From positions 34,931,001-34,995,000 of the forward strand of contig NC_068560.1 in NCBI RefSeq assembly GCF_022201045.2: 64,000 nt of DNA. Reading direction: 5' to 3'. Source of the DNA: Citrus sinensis (Eukaryota > Streptophyta > Magnoliopsida > Sapindales > Rutaceae). The notes below the pieces were generated by a model. The model saw only the letters and a list, made by a program, of their open reading frames with translations, was not told the origin of the DNA and did not search any database. A program made the position numbers and the translations under genes. Each line of letters begins with the position of its first letter. Position 1 is the stretch's first letter. Shown here piece by piece: positions 3,335 through 45,457 of the stretch.

Positions 3335-4585
3335 AAATTATTTATGAATGCTTATAATAAATATCTCTTATTTATTATTTTGGTATTAGTTTTTTTTTTT
3401 AATAATGTTGTTGTCGTTGATGTTTTTTTCTTTCCTTTTTTTGGGTTATTATTATCATTATTATTTACAATAAAAGAGTAAACACATTTCGCATCGGTCC
3501 TCACCTCATTACGATTTATGGGCCTCGAACAATGACCATTACTTTTTTAAAAGGCCCAGATAGGCCCTCTCCTTTTGTGTCATCGCAATTCAATTTCAAC
3601 ATCACAATCACGAGAGACCAGTTAAGCTATTGAAAAGGAAAAGGAAACCAAATAGACTCCCACTTTTATCAAAAAATGGTCGCTTTAAGCCCGTTTGTCT
3701 CGTGGTCTTCCACTTAGAATTTCCTTTTTCTTTCTAAACTACGTAAATTTCACACAAGTCTCCCATATTTCGTTTAAATACAATGGAGCCTTAAATGATT
3801 CAAATTTCATCAACCCATCTTATATGTAATAAGCTAATCGAATAAATCCTACGATATTTTTTTTAAAAATATTTGAAAACTTATTGCTTGCTAAGTTTCT
3901 TTCGATTGTTAATTTCTAGGGTTGAAAAATGAAAATGTCATGAAGTATATTTTTATAAAAATCAACATTTTATGCATGTGAAAAAATAAGAAAAATTATT
4001 ATAATCTTTTCTTTTCAAAGAAAAATCTCATATCTATTCAAAAAAGTGTCGCATAGTATCAAGATATGGATTATAATCGTATTTACTTATAACCAAAAAG
4101 GAATTTAAGTGACACTTTTAAAAACGTATGTAATGTTTGAAGCTCGTATATAATTAAGAGAAATAGAATATACCTCAATGAAATTTGGTTTTTCCAAAAG
4201 TTTTCAACATCCGTGTGGTTGGTAAACGAGTGTGTGTCCGTCCCACTAACAAAGCTGGCGCTTTAATTCTCCAACAATCGAAATCCTTTTCTCTTCCTCT
4301 TCAGTTGCACATTCCATATTCACTCCTACTCAGTCAGACTCACTTACTTCAAGCTGGCAACAGAAACAGTCACGCGCCTCGGATCAGAAGTCACGTGCTG
4401 CAGTTAATTCCTTCAACCTCAAAATCAGAAAATTAAAAATCAATATTTCCATTGAATGTACTTCAAACACAAATAAAATTTCATTCAATTCTTCTTCAGA
4501 TCCTCACCATTCCCTAGGGTTTCGTAATTTGTAACTTTTAATTATCTGTAATTCATTTCAGTTCTTTCACTTGCTTACTTGCATC
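3335..4585. other. intergenic region upstream of the O-fucosyltransferase gene
   Basis: No gene is visible. TGGGCC-type motifs occur near 3518 and 3553. The last 150 bases before the ATG are pyrimidine-rich and probably hold the promoter and 5' leader. No convincing TATA box was found. Confidence 0.5.
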
Positions 4586-31071: not shown

Positions 31072-31081
31072 TTTTATATTT

Positions 31082-31218
31082 GGGTAATTTTTAAAAACCT
31101 CCCCTGAGGTTCGAGGCTGTTGCAAGTAGATGGCCAAAATCATTTTATTTGTAAAAGACCCCCTACGTTTTTGTTCCGTTTGGTTGCCGTTTGGCTAATT
31201 AGGGGCGTTATTGACATT
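31082..31218 (+). repeat. left 137-bp terminal inverted repeat of the Pack-MULE
   Basis: Runs from GGGTAATTTTTAAAAACC to GGGGCGTTATTGACATT and pairs with 32254-32390 on the opposite strand with about five mismatches. Confidence 0.93.
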
Positions 31219-31400
31219 TTGTAATGTTATCAGAGACTTGTCGTTTTATTGTATTTAGCATAGTAACTTATCATTTTGAATGGGTCAAGTTCCTTTTTTA
31301 TCTCGTTTTATTTCTTCTCTCTCCTAAGTTCAAGTTCTTTCCCTTTATCTAGACCCCCAAACTCTCTCAATGGCTGGTGTTCTTAACTACACTAGTGAAA

Positions 31401-31668
31401 ATGGTTGCTCCTGCTACCTCGACCAACTTCATGGGGATGAAGCCGCAGTTGCTTGTGGAAGCATCGAAGGCTACTGGCTCTGTTCAGTTCTACGAGACAG
31501 CGTTTGGTGCTGTGGGGATTAGCCGCAACATGGAAACTAAACGAAAGGCTGAACAGGAGCTCAACTCCAGATTGCCGGCTCCACATTTCATGTCTCTGCC
31601 TTTTCCGATGATTTTGCTGCAGCTAAGAATATAGGAATCAAATGCGTCCTCTGCTTGGAGATTGAAAT
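31401..31668 (+). pseudogene. captured fragment of a glyoxalase/VOC-like protein gene
   Basis: From ATG 31401 the reading MVAPATSTNFMGMKPQLLVE continues into ATGSVQFYETAFGAV and [11 protein letters not shown]. This matches the N-terminal half of plant glyoxalase-I-like (VOC fold) proteins related to At5g48480, as I remember them. After AEQEL the homology moves to another frame, [18 protein letters not shown] then [17 protein letters not shown]. Some bases, including the expected PHI-SAE segment, have therefore been lost and the frame is broken. The C-terminal half of the domain is absent. It lies inside the Pack-MULE, so it is a transduplicated fragment and not a working gene. Confidence 0.8.
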
Positions 31669-31780
31669 GTTAATATGCCAGGTACTTGATTTTCTTCGAA
31701 GTTATAGTCATTCTGTTTCTGACCCACTAGCTCTTGTTACTTTTGTTCATGTGACGCTAACTCATTATCTGTTTGCGAAG

Positions 31781-32253
31781 GCTGTTGTTGCTGCTTGCAT
31801 TGGTGCTAAATTTGGAATTGATGGGAATCCTGGGGAGCTGCCGAAGTGGTATGCAATTGTTGTAGTGCTTTTCATCTGCATATACGTTGCTGGATTTGCC
31901 TGGTCTTGGGGTCCTCTTGGATGGTTGGTGCCTAGTGAATCTTCCCTCTCGAAATAAGATCAGCGGCACAGAGTGTGAGTGTTTCTATCAACATGTTGTT
32001 CACATTCTTGGTTGCACAAGTGTTCTTGAACATGCTGTGCCACCTCAAGTTTGGCTTGTTCCTTTTCTTCGCGTTCTTCATGCTGGTGATGTCATTCTTC
32101 ATCTACTTCTTCTTACCGGAGACCAAGGGAATTCCAATTGAAGAAATGGGTAGAGTGTGGAAAACTCATTGGTTCTGGTCTCATTATGTCGGTGAAGATG
32201 ATTTTGTCCCCGGTGGAAACGTGGAAATGCACAAAGGAAGCAATGCTACCAAG
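31781..32253 (+). pseudogene. captured fragment of a sugar transport protein (STP/hexose carrier) gene
   Basis: The reading [40 protein letters not shown] and [13 protein letters not shown] is the C-terminal half of a plant monosaccharide/H+ symporter of the STP family (major facilitator superfamily). After PSE the frame shifts: a single A appears lost where GAAATCTTC would encode the conserved EIF. The next frame continues [20 protein letters not shown] through [25 protein letters not shown]-like motifs and the first half of the transporter are missing. The fragment abuts the right terminal repeat. It cannot encode a transporter and is a transduplicated pseudogene. Confidence 0.88.
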
Positions 32254-32390
32254 AATGTCAATAACGCCCCTAACTAGCCAAACGGCAACCAAACGGAACA
32301 AAAACGTAGGGGGTCTTTTACAACTAAAACGATTTTAGCCATCTACTTGCAACAGCCTTGAACCTCAGGGGAGGTTTTTAAAAATTACCC
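32254..32390 (-). repeat. right 137-bp terminal inverted repeat of the Pack-MULE
   Basis: Reverse-complement partner of 31082-31218; its outer end reads GGGTAATTTTTAAAAACC on the minus strand. Confidence 0.93.
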
Positions 32391-32400
32391 TTTTATATTT

Positions 32401-37888: not shown

Positions 37889-38860
37889 TTAAGACTCTTC
37901 ATCTCCGCTATTACTGGCTTGAGTAGTCTGCTGATTATTATTGTTATTATTATCGTTATCATTATTATTTTCTTGACGATTTTGGCCAAAAATATTCATG
38001 GCCAAACCAGGAGCTCTATAAGCATTATTAGAGCCAACGCCACCACCCAAAACGCCCATGTTATTATTGAGACTCTCTGCAAGAACTCCTACCCCCAGCT
38101 GCTGCTGATGACCGCCCATTTGAACAGAACTCAGCCGGCCTAGACCCGAATAATGAGCGGGAAAAGTCCACATCTGTGCCTCCGGTAGCATCCAGAAGCC
38201 GTTGCCCCCATTAGAAGCAGCAGCCGGTGCCACTGCCCACATAGCAGCTGCAGGTGCCGCCACGGCAGCAGCTGCTGAAGCAGAAGAAGAAGAAGAAGAA
38301 GATGAAGAAGCACAAGCACTTGCTGTTGCTGCCGCTGTTTCATGAATATTATACAACAATTGTTGCTGCTGCTGCTGCTGAAACGCCCCACAAAAAAAAC
38401 CTCCACTATTAATGTTGTTGTTGGTGGTGTTGTTGTAAAGTGCCAAAGCAGCGGCGGCGCTGTGGAGTGATGATTTAGAAGCGGGCGCTGAAAGAGAGGA
38501 GCTGCCGCTGCTACGTAAAGAGATATTAAGAGTTGAAAAATTAGCAGGAATGGTGCCGGTGCCCGTGGTAGCTATAATGGCAGGCTCAGCTTGTTGCAGC
38601 AGCCACTCAATGGTTTCACCATCTGATTTGTGCCCTAATTCTCTTGTTAACTGAAAAACCCTAGCTGCACATACTGCCGGCATCCGTATCCGTCGCCCCC
38701 GGCCGTCCACTTTGGTGTGCCGGTCCTTTGACGGCTTCTTGGCTAGGGTTTTGGTAGCTGCTGAAACTGTACTTGTTGTCGTTGTTGTTGTATTAGGGTT
38801 TGAATTATTTGATGACGCTGTGGTTTGGTTGTTGTTGTTGTTGTGTTCCATTATTTTCAT
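37889..38860 (-). CDS. class I TCP transcription factor
   Basis: Nuclear plant-specific factor that binds GGNCCCAC-type sites and regulates growth. Single exon, 323 residues. The TCP basic helix-loop-helix domain spans about residues 43-98: [20 protein letters not shown], then [30 protein letters not shown]. The shortened basic region and the following [10 protein letters not shown] plus [11 protein letters not shown] are hallmarks of class I (PCF) proteins. The rest is low complexity: Asn/Thr-rich N-terminus, poly-Gln, poly-Ser and poly-Ala blocks, and an Asn-rich tail ending SNSGDEES. A second ATG three codons in could also be used. Neighbouring genes suggest the TCP22/TCP23 pair of Arabidopsis (At1g72010/At1g35560), by remembered gene order. 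Confidence 0.93.
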
Positions 38861-41811: not shown

Positions 41812-44800
41812 TCAGCAATTCCAAGAAGATGATCTTCTGATCACTGGCTTCATCTGTTTGTCCTCCTCCAGGGAAATCATACCCAAGTGTGAGGGATCCT
41901 CCAACATCATCTTTGCCACCAGATATCCAGCAATTGACCATGTCTGATATTTCCTAGCCTGTTTACCAATATATCTACCAAGTTTCCCATCGTAATATTC
42001 AGGCCAGCAATCTTTTAGCATACGGGCCTCAGCCAGGTCAATTGCTCGTCTTGCAATTTGTGGACGTCCCGTTTTAATGCAAGCAGCCGTTAGCATCCAC
42101 AAAAGGACTGCATTCAGGGTGGAAAAAGCTTTAGTTACCATCAAATAGAAGAAAACAAAAGGGTCACCTAAGAGAAACAGTGTTTTCCTCAGCTTGATTT
42201 ACAGCATCAATAAATTCTTATCATACTTTCAAGAATCTTAGGCAACATCAGTCTGTAGCTAAACAGAAAAAAGGTTAATTGCAGAAATTTACAAGGAGTA
42301 ATAATCAAATTATCTTTCCTGGATCATCTAAATGATCGATGGCAACTGCTGACTATTTACAAAAGCCAATCATTATGTCCTCAAAAGCCAAACTAGTTAC
42401 TCTAAGTGCCTATTTGGTATGACTTATTTAAGAGCCATAAGGGCTTATTTAATCGTATAAGCACTTTTTAAATTTTTTTATAGTGTTTGGTTATTTTTAG
42501 CTCTACTAGCAAAATTTGAGCTAATTTACCTCTACTAGCAAAAGCCCAAAATTTGAGCTTTTGGGAGTAGAGGTTATAAAGCTTTTCTAAAAATATATAA
42601 TATAAAAAATATCACACTGTTTAATGGTTCAAAAGTGCGTTTTTTATTGACAACCAAATACCCAATGGCTTTTTGTCCAAAAGCTCTATTGGTATAAGCT
42701 CTACTGCTATAAGCTCTACTGTTATAAGCTCTATTTAATAAGTTGTACCAAACGGAGCCGAAAAGTCAACTTCACTGTATTTTGAATGATATTTACCCAC
42801 CAGCTTCGCTGTCATATAAAAATATACCTCAATTTCACATATTTCTATGAAAAAAAATAACCCGAACTGAAATGGAAAACAATGAAAGAGCTTTCTTTGC
42901 ATCATTTCATCAAAAATTGTTCCTCTTTGCATTGAAGTTTCAATTCAACTAAATTTTTTAAGAAGTAACAAACCTGGCCAAGAACCTCCATTATGGTAAC
43001 TCCATCTTGTATTCTTGGGATCACAACCAGTTACAATCCGCCATTCATGACTTTCTATAGCAGGATAAGCAATTTTTAGAGGCATTTCACCAACTAGTTC
43101 CTCCCATCGTACTTCAATAAGGTCCATAATAGCCATTGATTGTTCCGGAGTTGCAAGAGAAGATAGAATTGCAACACAGTTACCTAAAGCAAACCATCGA
43201 AAATCCATTCTTGCAGGACTCACATTGCCGATAAAATAGCCACCACGAATTGGCATAAAATCAAAAACCCAATCAGGGATCGAATCAGGAATGACATTAA
43301 ATTTATTTACCGCTGTATGAGAGTACTCCTCTGTTTTATATCTGTATATGTCATTTAGCTGTTGGAAGTCCAGCCAAAAGTAACTTCTCATATGATAACT
43401 CAAGGCATGCAAACGTTTAACTATTCTCTCAATAAATTCTTTTCCTTCAGCATCATGTTTCAACAATGACAAAGCGCATCTTAGAGCCATAAAGAAAAGT
43501 GCTTGAATTTCAATGGGATAACCATAAATACCCTGCAAAATACATATATGAAATTAAAGCGTTTGAGAAGGTAAAATTTCTTGACCCCTCAAAAGACACA
43601 AGGGAGCTCATCAAGAGGGACCTAAAGTCAAAAGTAATACTAAAAGTACTATAACAGTTTAGATAAAAACCTTTCCAAAAATTAGCAATGACTTTTATGT
43701 TTATAACAGGAGAACTAGATATGTAATAACTGCCAGTTGGCACACAAGCAAAATTAGCAATGACTTTTAGGTTTATAACAGGAGAACTAGATACGTAAAC
43801 ACCGCTGGTTGGAACACATGGAAAGCCACAAATTTTTAGGGCATCCTTTTGCCCTCACAATTAACATGGAGGGGGAATGGTCATTAATACTCATAACTTA
43901 TACTCCACTCAACAACCCTAAGTTTGACATACCATGATTCAAATTAAAAAAAAAAATGCCACAGAACTACCATCATACCAAGTTCTCGCATGAGACGTGA
44001 ACATCCAGACCTGATATCATAATTCAAAGCGTGAATAAGCAGTGAGTTTGTGATTGAATACACTCATTAACTAATTAGTCACACATTTCCTATGTCAATG
44101 CAGCTAGCATAGTTCTAGTCAGGAAACTCTAAGCAATGATTTGCAAAGTTAAATTGATTCCAGTTCACTTCATCTTGGCTCTAGAACAAAAAGAACAATA
44201 GTAGATGGTCCAATAACAGCAACACAAGCGAGTGCATGCGCAGCTGACACAAGGCTAAACAAGATCATCACGTAAAATTACCATTCTTCGATCAATCATT
44301 GAGCATCCATCAGCACAGAGCAGGGTTGGGAATGTATCAAATCCTTCAGACAGACAGAGAGCCAATATGAGCCTCATTCCCTTCTGACACTCAGGTGTCT
44401 CTGCCAGAGATAGATCCCCAGTAGACTTTGTATATGCACGAAGCAGAATAATCCACCAGAATCCAGAGTCAACTGGAGCAACTCTTCCTATTGCACTCTC
44501 ACCAAAATCTGCAATAATAGTATCTGTTTTCCGAACAGGATCGTGAAGAACTTTGAAGCTAGCAGGCATTGCCCCTTCGCCAAGCTTGAATCGGTCTATT
44601 CTTTTTTCCCATCCCTGAAGCTGCAGAGTCTTCAAGAGGAAGTTCTTCACTATATCAGGCTCGCCATTCATCAAAAACGCCAGAGCACTGGGCACAAAAT
44701 CTCGGACAAAGACCTAAATAAAAACAGATATTAAATTGAAACTAAGAATTTGAGTAACATGATTAAGCAAAGAATAATGGGCGATCAGAATTCAATATAA

Positions 44801-45457
44801 ATATTATAGTACTAACTTGGACACAAAACAATCAAAACTTAGATAGCCAAGCTATCTTCTGAATTTCAATTGGTGCTGATTACGCAATTCAATATATCGT
44901 TCGTTTTTGTGGAGTTATCATTTCATTTCTCACCATAGCATAGCTAAAATACACCTGAACTTCAAGGAAATTAATGTTTCCTCTCATATTTCATACAAAT
45001 CTCAAATCCAACAAACACCTCCAAAACCATAGCAAGTGTTCATTATATGCATAACAAAAAATTTTACCTGATCATAATTCAGAACCTCCTCAGAGGCATG
45101 ATCGTAAGCAGCAATGGTACCGACCGGCTGGCCCCTGAAATACACCAATGACCTTCTCAGAGCCTCCCACGCTTCTGCCACCATGGGGTGGGGCTCAAAC
45201 GAGTTCCTAGTTGAAGATACCGGCGTATCAAACCCAGACCTTCCGCCAGGTGAATAAGTGCTCTCATAGTTATCAACACCTCCACGTGTCAAACCAATCG
45301 AGAGCTCACTAAGCGACCTCTCATCAAATGATCTCTGCCTCTCGATATTAAGCCTAGGCTTATCAAGAAGCTTAGAGAGATCATAGTCATCCATTTCTGA
45401 GATTGAGCAATGTGAGCTTACATTTCTCAAACCCAACACCTCTTTTGTCCCATCCAT
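41812..45457 (-). CDS. CINV1: neutral/alkaline invertase (GH100), cytosolic type
   Basis: Hydrolyses sucrose to glucose and fructose at neutral to alkaline pH. Four exons (45068-45457, 44282-44713, 42974-43532, 41812-42107) join in frame to 558 residues, close to the Arabidopsis cytosolic enzyme. The N-terminus [20 protein letters not shown] lacks an organelle targeting peptide. A Ser-rich stretch with [13 protein letters not shown] resembles the phosphorylated 14-3-3-binding region known in CINV1. Catalytic-domain sequences include [37 protein letters not shown] (Asp near 212, the catalytic acid by analogy with cyanobacterial InvA), [38 protein letters not shown] and [18 protein letters not shown]. 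Intron 3 carries a MITE-like insertion and intron 2 a tandem duplication. Clade A-F versus G is not settled; gene order supports At1g35580/At1g72000 kinship. Confidence 0.95.
42406..42759. mobile_element. MITE-like element in invertase intron 3
   Basis: The left end GTGCCTATTTGGTATGACTT and the right end, read on the minus strand as GGCTCCGTTTGGTACAACTT, form an imperfect terminal inverted repeat of about 30 bp enclosing roughly 350 bp. The interior repeats AAGCTCTACTG(C/T)TAT motifs near the right end. GTTTGGTA-type ends are common in plant miniature transposons. No clear target duplication was seen, so the superfamily is open. Confidence 0.6.
43677..43824. repeat. 72-bp tandem duplication in invertase intron 2
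   Basis: The segment starting ATTAGCAATGACTTTTATG at 43681 recurs at 43753 with a few substitutions, covering the shared GTTTATAACAGGAGAACTAG. It is intronic and has no evident function. Confidence 0.85.

Follow-up and report, generated by a model that had tools for sequence, protein, structure and literature searches.

Element W, a gene-carrying transposable element located in a window of 64,000 nucleotides of the Citrus sinensis genome (C5:34931001-34995000, the whole stretch of DNA analysed), is very probably a non-autonomous Mutator-like Pack-MULE that was built stepwise, by retroposition of a glyoxalase/VOC mRNA into a MULE, spread of the resulting element, and later DNA-level uptake of the end of an STP sugar transporter gene. 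As judged from the sequences of its relatives, where the first step is seen, the mRNA of an At5g48480-like VOC gene (C2:22.745 Mb) would have been reverse-transcribed and inserted inside a MULE, presumably by a target-primed LINE-type enzyme. The VOC-bearing MULE then multiplied, with 12 VOC copies remaining, and in one lineage the STP end (C2:29.32 Mb), copied at the DNA level together with its intron, took the place of the 3' half, the right end becoming long and left-like, likely through template switching during gap repair or replication. Elements with the VOC-STP junction now stand at three places, the window included, and relatives took up more genomic pieces. Each of the three VOC-STP copies bears disabling lesions of its own, and most likely they have no host role now. 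Two gene-copying routes, retroposition and DNA copying, would have met in this single element.

Structure, family and coding capacity of the window element

W spans positions 31082-32390 of the window (1,309 bp), with the parts collected in Table 1. Comparison of its arms gives exactly five mismatches between the terminal inverted repeats, and an inverted-repeat search extends these arms to 31075-31218 and 32254-32397 (144 nt, 94%). The element is flanked on both sides by a perfect 10-bp target duplication and carries two gene fragments in the same orientation, for which Pfam, applied to three stop-free stretches, returned At5g48480-like_N (E 6.5e-15) and Sugar_tr (E 2.9e-8 and 2.3e-18). No transposase domain was detected by Pfam in these stretches, nor was any present among frames of at least 25 codons. 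W displays these features of Pack-MULEs: long terminal inverted repeats, a duplication of 9-11 bp, host gene fragments and no internal transposase.

A preliminary description of this DNA had given the inverted repeats, the 10-bp duplication, the absence of a transposase and the two fragments of equal orientation correctly to the base. Its proposal of a Pack-MULE with pieces of two unrelated genes is supported by the genome search that it suggested, which located the parents at two separate C2 genes, at 22.745 Mb for VOC and 29.32 Mb for STP. Both gene identities stood, but their extents had to be redrawn: the supposed N-terminal half of the VOC protein includes the 5'UTR and runs beyond the exon 1-exon 2 junction, and the supposed C-terminal half of STP corresponds to the last exon, the preceding intron and 17-18 bases of the prior exon. 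Several kb from W, the window also contains long frames on the minus strand (37889-38860 and 42945-45457), which look like those of a TCP transcription factor and of a neutral invertase.

Table 1. Parts of element W and its flanks, in window positions
Feature	Position	Strand	Basis
Left 10-bp target site duplication, TTTTATATTT	31072..31081	.	sequence
Left 137-bp terminal inverted repeat, with 5 mismatches against its right counterpart	31082..31218	+	arm comparison
Sub-terminal part of the MULE; alignment to VOC-less MULEs reaches element position ~196	31219..31275	+	
Left direct-repeat copy, TTGAATGGGT (most likely the target duplication of the VOC retrocopy)	31276..31285	+	
5' part of the VOC piece, most likely a retrocopy (At5g48480-like glyoxalase): 5'UTR, exon 1, start of exon 2	31286..31664	+	
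Landmarks of the VOC part	ATG 31370; exon-exon junction 31620/31621; common 19-bp deletion ~31558/31559	+	
VOC/STP junction, identical in three VOC-STP elements	31661..31668	+	
End of the penultimate STP exon	31664..31681	+	
STP intron, retained, GT...AG	31682..31780	+	
Last STP exon; 1-bp deletion near 31938 breaks the frame	31781..32258	+	
Right terminal inverted repeat; left-like over 137 bp, against ~83 bp in VOC-only elements	32254..32390	-	
Right 10-bp target site duplication	32391..32400	.	sequence

The genome searched comprises 299.7 Mb in 11 contigs. A 23-base terminus of W, allowing two mismatches at most, occurs at 870 places in it, as opposed to a single place for the reversed control, so the termini of W are not a matter of chance. 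The preliminary description had also advised a search for sisters. Two relatives have the VOC-STP structure of W: C4_19.98, with 93% identity in an alignment of 1,359 columns, and C4_19.51, with 95.7% in one of 1,186. When the whole of W was used as genome query, at least 96 matches were obtained (best 40 of 553 candidates scored), and 20 stretches were fetched, 14 of them with elements of its family; L007 and L014 are the same place, as are L008 and L015. With an end probe of 30 bases and target-duplication offsets of up to 2 bases, both ends and a duplication of 10-11 bp were recognized in 10 of the 14 family loci (nine perfect, one with one mismatch), and the probe missed one end in three loci and both ends in one (L023).

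The joined flanks of W gave at least 40 matches (best 40 of 54 candidates scored), two being the window itself. Counted by eye, 22 of the 38 non-self matches cross the insertion point by at least 10 bases on each side, element-free and at 69-79% identity, which suggests that W probably inserted into an old dispersed repeat. Only 4 of these 22 continue for more than 30 bases beyond that point, and 9 of the 16 other matches stop at 141-143, exactly where W is inserted, which would suggest that the repeat often has its end there. Insertion into a family element is seen at L014 (731-3184), where a VOC element (997-2339) lies nested in another member, each with its own perfect 10-bp duplication.

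MULE transposase domains are abundant in the genome (899 candidates, best 150 scored), yet none was found within 39.9 kb of W-type termini when 38 of the 150 scored domains were compared with the first 100 of the 870 termini. Inspection by eye of the longer frames of L029-L056 revealed no MULE transposase either, the only transposase domain scanned there being of hAT type (L054). No autonomous partner was found in these comparisons, and L029, 7.8 kb long and with MULE termini, holds two long frames that look like those of a copia retrotransposon.

Regarding coding capacity, the VOC frame of W is shifted by a 19-bp deletion common to all ten testable copies, and the STP frame bears lesions that differ among elements: a 1-bp deletion in W, premature stops in C4_19.98, and an 8-bp insertion plus a stop in C4_19.51. 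Since both frames of W are broken, a functional fusion protein was rejected and a chimeric protein from W is unlikely. In the STP exon, changes confined to a single one of the three copies amount to 7 synonymous and 13 non-synonymous ones, with ~78% non-synonymous expected if neutral, and the changes common to the three are 3 synonymous and 0 non-synonymous. These counts give no significant sign of protein selection on the VOC-STP copies, their numbers being too small to decide, and the three all-synonymous shared changes could reflect constraint before the copies split or a closer, unsampled parent.

W is most likely an inert passenger of no use to the host, and any effect on it would possibly go through RNA, as a hairpin or as small RNAs. 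It is rather improbable that W constitutes a functional non-coding locus whose fold-back transcript would yield small RNAs directed at its two parent genes, VOC and STP. The 137-bp inverted arms, the 97% identity of the STP fragment with its parent and the existence of several copies would suit such a role, and gene-carrying transposable elements are reported to be siRNA reservoirs in maize (PMC13317346). However, the retrocopy begins downstream of the parental TATA-like box and would thereby have brought no parental promoter, and a VOC part ~25% diverged from its parent would make a poor silencing trigger.

The VOC piece and its probable landing site

The VOC parent is a two-exon gene at C2:22745372, whose exons correspond to the Pfam families At5g48480-like_N and At5g48480-like_C; no second At5g48480-like gene of full length was found in the genome. 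Exon 1 of this parent shows relationship to Arabidopsis At5g48480, a protein of solved structure (1xy7, E 4.4e-19). PF22656 gave 13 genome matches (15 of 15 candidates scored), and the full domain is present only in the C2 gene (positions 1-59, no stop). The other 12 are truncated, ending at positions 29-45, and all coincide with element positions found by DNA.

The parental intron (L025 3738-4137, GTACGT...ACCAG) is gone in all eight copies that reach the junction, as assessed with a 29-base probe allowing up to 6 substitutions, and the remaining 4 of the 12 stop short of it. In L023 the loss is exact to the base, parent position 3737 joining 4138, and four other full-length copies show the same spacing at the exon border. 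The five copies that keep the VOC 3' end all display the 3'UTR followed by 9-15 A and then TTGAATGGGT. This repeat also stands, exact, before the 5'UTR in 3 of the 5 full-length copies, being therefore exact on both sides in them; of the other two, C3_0.09 deviates from it at 3 of its 10 positions, and in L023 no left end can be recognised. In C5_24.83 the direct repeat measures 13 bases (TTTGAATGGGTGA). The longest alignments start near parent position 3343, an approximate value in a stretch rich in C and T, ~30 bases downstream of a TATA-like TATAAAA read by eye at L025 3309, that is, where the start of the transcript would be expected.

The 19-bp deletion of exon 1 lies between two GCTC repeats, and its occurrence in the ten copies holding the region makes a single event the likely source of the VOC copies. 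In a tree of the VOC sequences, rooted at the midpoint for drawing only and not used for ordering events, the gene and L023 group together (100/99), and so do W and C4_19.98 (87/87). Neither the poly(A) nor the right TTGAATGGGT survives in W, whose 3' half was replaced, and hence the retrocopy case rests on its relatives. Taken with them, the VOC piece of W is most likely the 5' part of a processed retrocopy rather than captured genomic DNA. The preliminary description had spoken of two captured gene pieces, an expression that fits the STP piece, which keeps its intron, but not the VOC one, which looks like a retroposed mRNA copy.

The place of insertion was searched for with the sequence from poly(A) and repeat to the right terminus (best 40 of 112 candidates scored; 18 stretches fetched). 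Uninterrupted CATTTTGAATGGGTAATGATG was found in at least seven VOC-less loci (L038, L039, L040, L045, L046, L048 and L054), with the TTGAATGGGT part exact in five (L039, L040, L045, L046 and L048) and with one substitution in L038 and L054; a match in L047, lacking TTGAATGGGT, was set aside as chance. After it, all seven loci continue with sequence akin to the right part of the VOC elements. Only two of the seven, L046 and L048, display clear termini at both ends as well as a perfect target duplication, and since they share that duplication they probably represent one insertion. L054 has both termini and a one-mismatch duplication, L045 shows both termini weakly (19 and 21 mismatches in 60) and also a one-mismatch duplication, and L038 has the left terminus; in L039 and L040 no terminus was detected with the terminus probe used.

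On the other side, the VOC elements can be aligned to VOC-less MULEs over their left ~196 bases, past which the VOC-less MULEs have other content. To the left of TTGAATGGGT, the uninterrupted sites match the VOC elements, by eye, over CATTTT only, so that a deletion joining the left end to the site, either before or after the insertion, must be assumed. In L024 (1003-2427, C5:26663503) the left end is common up to GAATGGGTGAAG, and a methyltransferase-like piece follows (Methyltransf_29, E 6.4e-10).

Considering that (i) the intron is missing, (ii) the copy starts just past the TATA-like box, (iii) a poly(A) is present, and (iv) TTGAATGGGT is duplicated around the copy and occurs once in VOC-less relatives, the VOC mRNA would have been retroposed directly into the MULE. 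That a MULE captured instead, at the DNA level, a pre-existing VOC retrocopy with its flanks from elsewhere has just a slight probability. Pack-MULEs normally take DNA, as the STP, Sec15-like and other pieces illustrate within the family of W, and the left flank of the repeat, unlike the uninterrupted sites beyond CATTTT, would accord with such a capture. On the contrary, the sequence from the repeat through the right terminus is MULE sequence, uninterrupted in VOC-less relatives, and genome searches by DNA and by PF22656 found no VOC retrocopy outside this family.

The STP piece, the termini and later pieces

The STP piece derives from C2:29319920-29320519, which is 97% identical to W including the intron and whose frames match Sugar_tr. 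Identity to the parents is 74.6% for the VOC part versus 96.8% for the STP part, so retroposition looks older than the STP step. VOC-only elements run past W position 584 into VOC exon 2; W, C4_19.98 and C4_19.51 switch to the STP gene at that position, 17-18 bases before the intron. It is scarcely credible that both pieces were taken up in a single capture, as the one junction common to the three elements might suggest, and this was rejected on account of the VOC elements without the STP coding piece, five of them with a complete retrocopy end, and of the unequal divergence from the parents and intron content of the two pieces.

In VOC-STP elements the right end resembles the left one over 137 bp (90.8-96.4%), compared with ~83 bp for two VOC-only elements in which this was measured, a likeness suggesting that the right end was replaced by a left-like one. 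The element's own left end may have served as the template, or the replacing end may have come from VOC-less family members with long termini on both sides (L034, L037). No MULE terminus (up to 5 substitutions in 23 bases) was found within 9 kb around the STP gene that could point to a MULE there as source. In C4_19.98 (L009, near 1186 as oriented), 42 bases of the STP end are repeated before the right terminus, a repeat that W does not have, and W may be the recombination product between such repeats. An STP paralogue (93%) at C7:13578708-13589591 (L017, L018) is split by ~10.9 kb of other sequence within the stretch matching the last exon.

Near-identical terminal repeats had been read in the preliminary description as the mark of a recent insertion, a reading that did not hold. 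MULE terminal repeats, unlike LTRs, are not made identical at insertion. The left terminus of W in fact shows 98.5% identity to the right terminus of another element, C9_33.18, as against 96.4% to the right terminus of W itself, and the terminal identities of the three VOC-STP elements are 96.4, 93.4 and 90.8%. A recent insertion was consequently rejected as a conclusion from terminal identity, which is no insertion clock for W, and this case warns against dating insertions in such a way.

Relatives contain further pieces, and five other genomic places are represented after the VOC part within the family. In C4_19.51 the STP piece extends as far as the 3'UTR, and next to it comes a piece with 95% identity to C7:5.806 Mb. 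C9_33.18 and C4_0.39 have a shortened VOC-STP joint, with a 226-base STP part identical to that of C4_19.98, and their extra pieces correspond to C6:25.69 Mb and to a repeated cluster at C5:27.08-28.31 Mb. In C3_20.07 and C3_1.99 the VOC part is followed by 92 bases from the 3' side of the same STP gene, antisense, and then by ~670 bases from C5:31.70 Mb; one STP locus was hence used twice, in opposite orientations, in VOC elements. The 92 antisense bases near STP are located in L012/L013 and in L011 (3065-3155). No long frames were present in the stretches fetched from C5:31.70, C6:25.69 and C5:27.08, and the pieces from these three sources may therefore be non-genic.

Other contents occur as well between related termini. 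C6_4.42 (L022 1007-2399, C6:4418276) has both ends of the VOC-only elements and an interior Sec15-like N-terminal piece (Pfam E 2.2e-50). A MULE of the same terminus family at L037 (1021-2329, C2:22692420) holds an open frame of 270 codons with an alpha/beta hydrolase domain of carboxylesterase-like type (E 2.8e-42), and another at L052 (855-2227, C1:11891254) is a two-gene chimera in which a BPS1-like piece and a DYW deaminase piece run in opposite directions.

Comparison with known systems

Processed retrocopies, or LINE-mediated pseudogenes, are recognized by intron loss, UTRs, a poly(A), a flanking direct repeat and an empty site, and the VOC retrocopy family exhibits the same hallmarks. 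Unlike for ordinary processed retrocopies, the landing site of VOC lies inside a DNA transposon, which multiplied the copy. With its MULE termini, a duplication in the range of 9-11 bp, host gene fragments and no transposase, W is similar to the Pack-MULEs of rice and other plants, as these are outlined in PMC13317346 and PMC4858842. Chimeras of two parents are also known among them, representing 5-10% of the putative MULE-derived genes of Oryza in the account of PMC4858842. W departs from the usual Pack-MULEs in that one of its gene parts most likely entered as reverse-transcribed mRNA and not as captured DNA. CitMule is likewise a MULE of Citrus, but differs, in the description given of it, by 9-bp duplications, the absence of long inverted termini and the presence of a transposase (PMC4334395).

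Among the titles and abstract openings retrieved from a mostly open-access literature on Pack-MULEs, MULEs and retrogenes, none describes an mRNA retrocopy inserted into a MULE, which speaks only weakly for novelty. An intronless gene piece in a Pack-MULE can easily be taken for DNA capture or for intron loss. The VOC-STP family links two main routes of plant gene duplication, in a manner that any plant genome can be scanned for. It is conceivable, though doubtful, that MULE interiors act as general landing sites for retroposed mRNAs, combining intronless copying, cut-and-paste spread and serial 3' fusions, the VOC family being one instance.

The nearest case retrieved, the human ARF6 retrogene in MER20, a Pack-TIR, shares with the family of W the location of a retrogene inside a TIR transposon (PMC8277862). 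For ARF6 the route is left open by its authors, recurrent retroposition included, in the part of that account considered here; for the VOC MULE, the uninterrupted sites, together with the poly(A) and the repeat, favour retroposition. In contrast with ARF6/MER20 as there described, the VOC family is a plant MULE, multicopy, and with later DNA capture.
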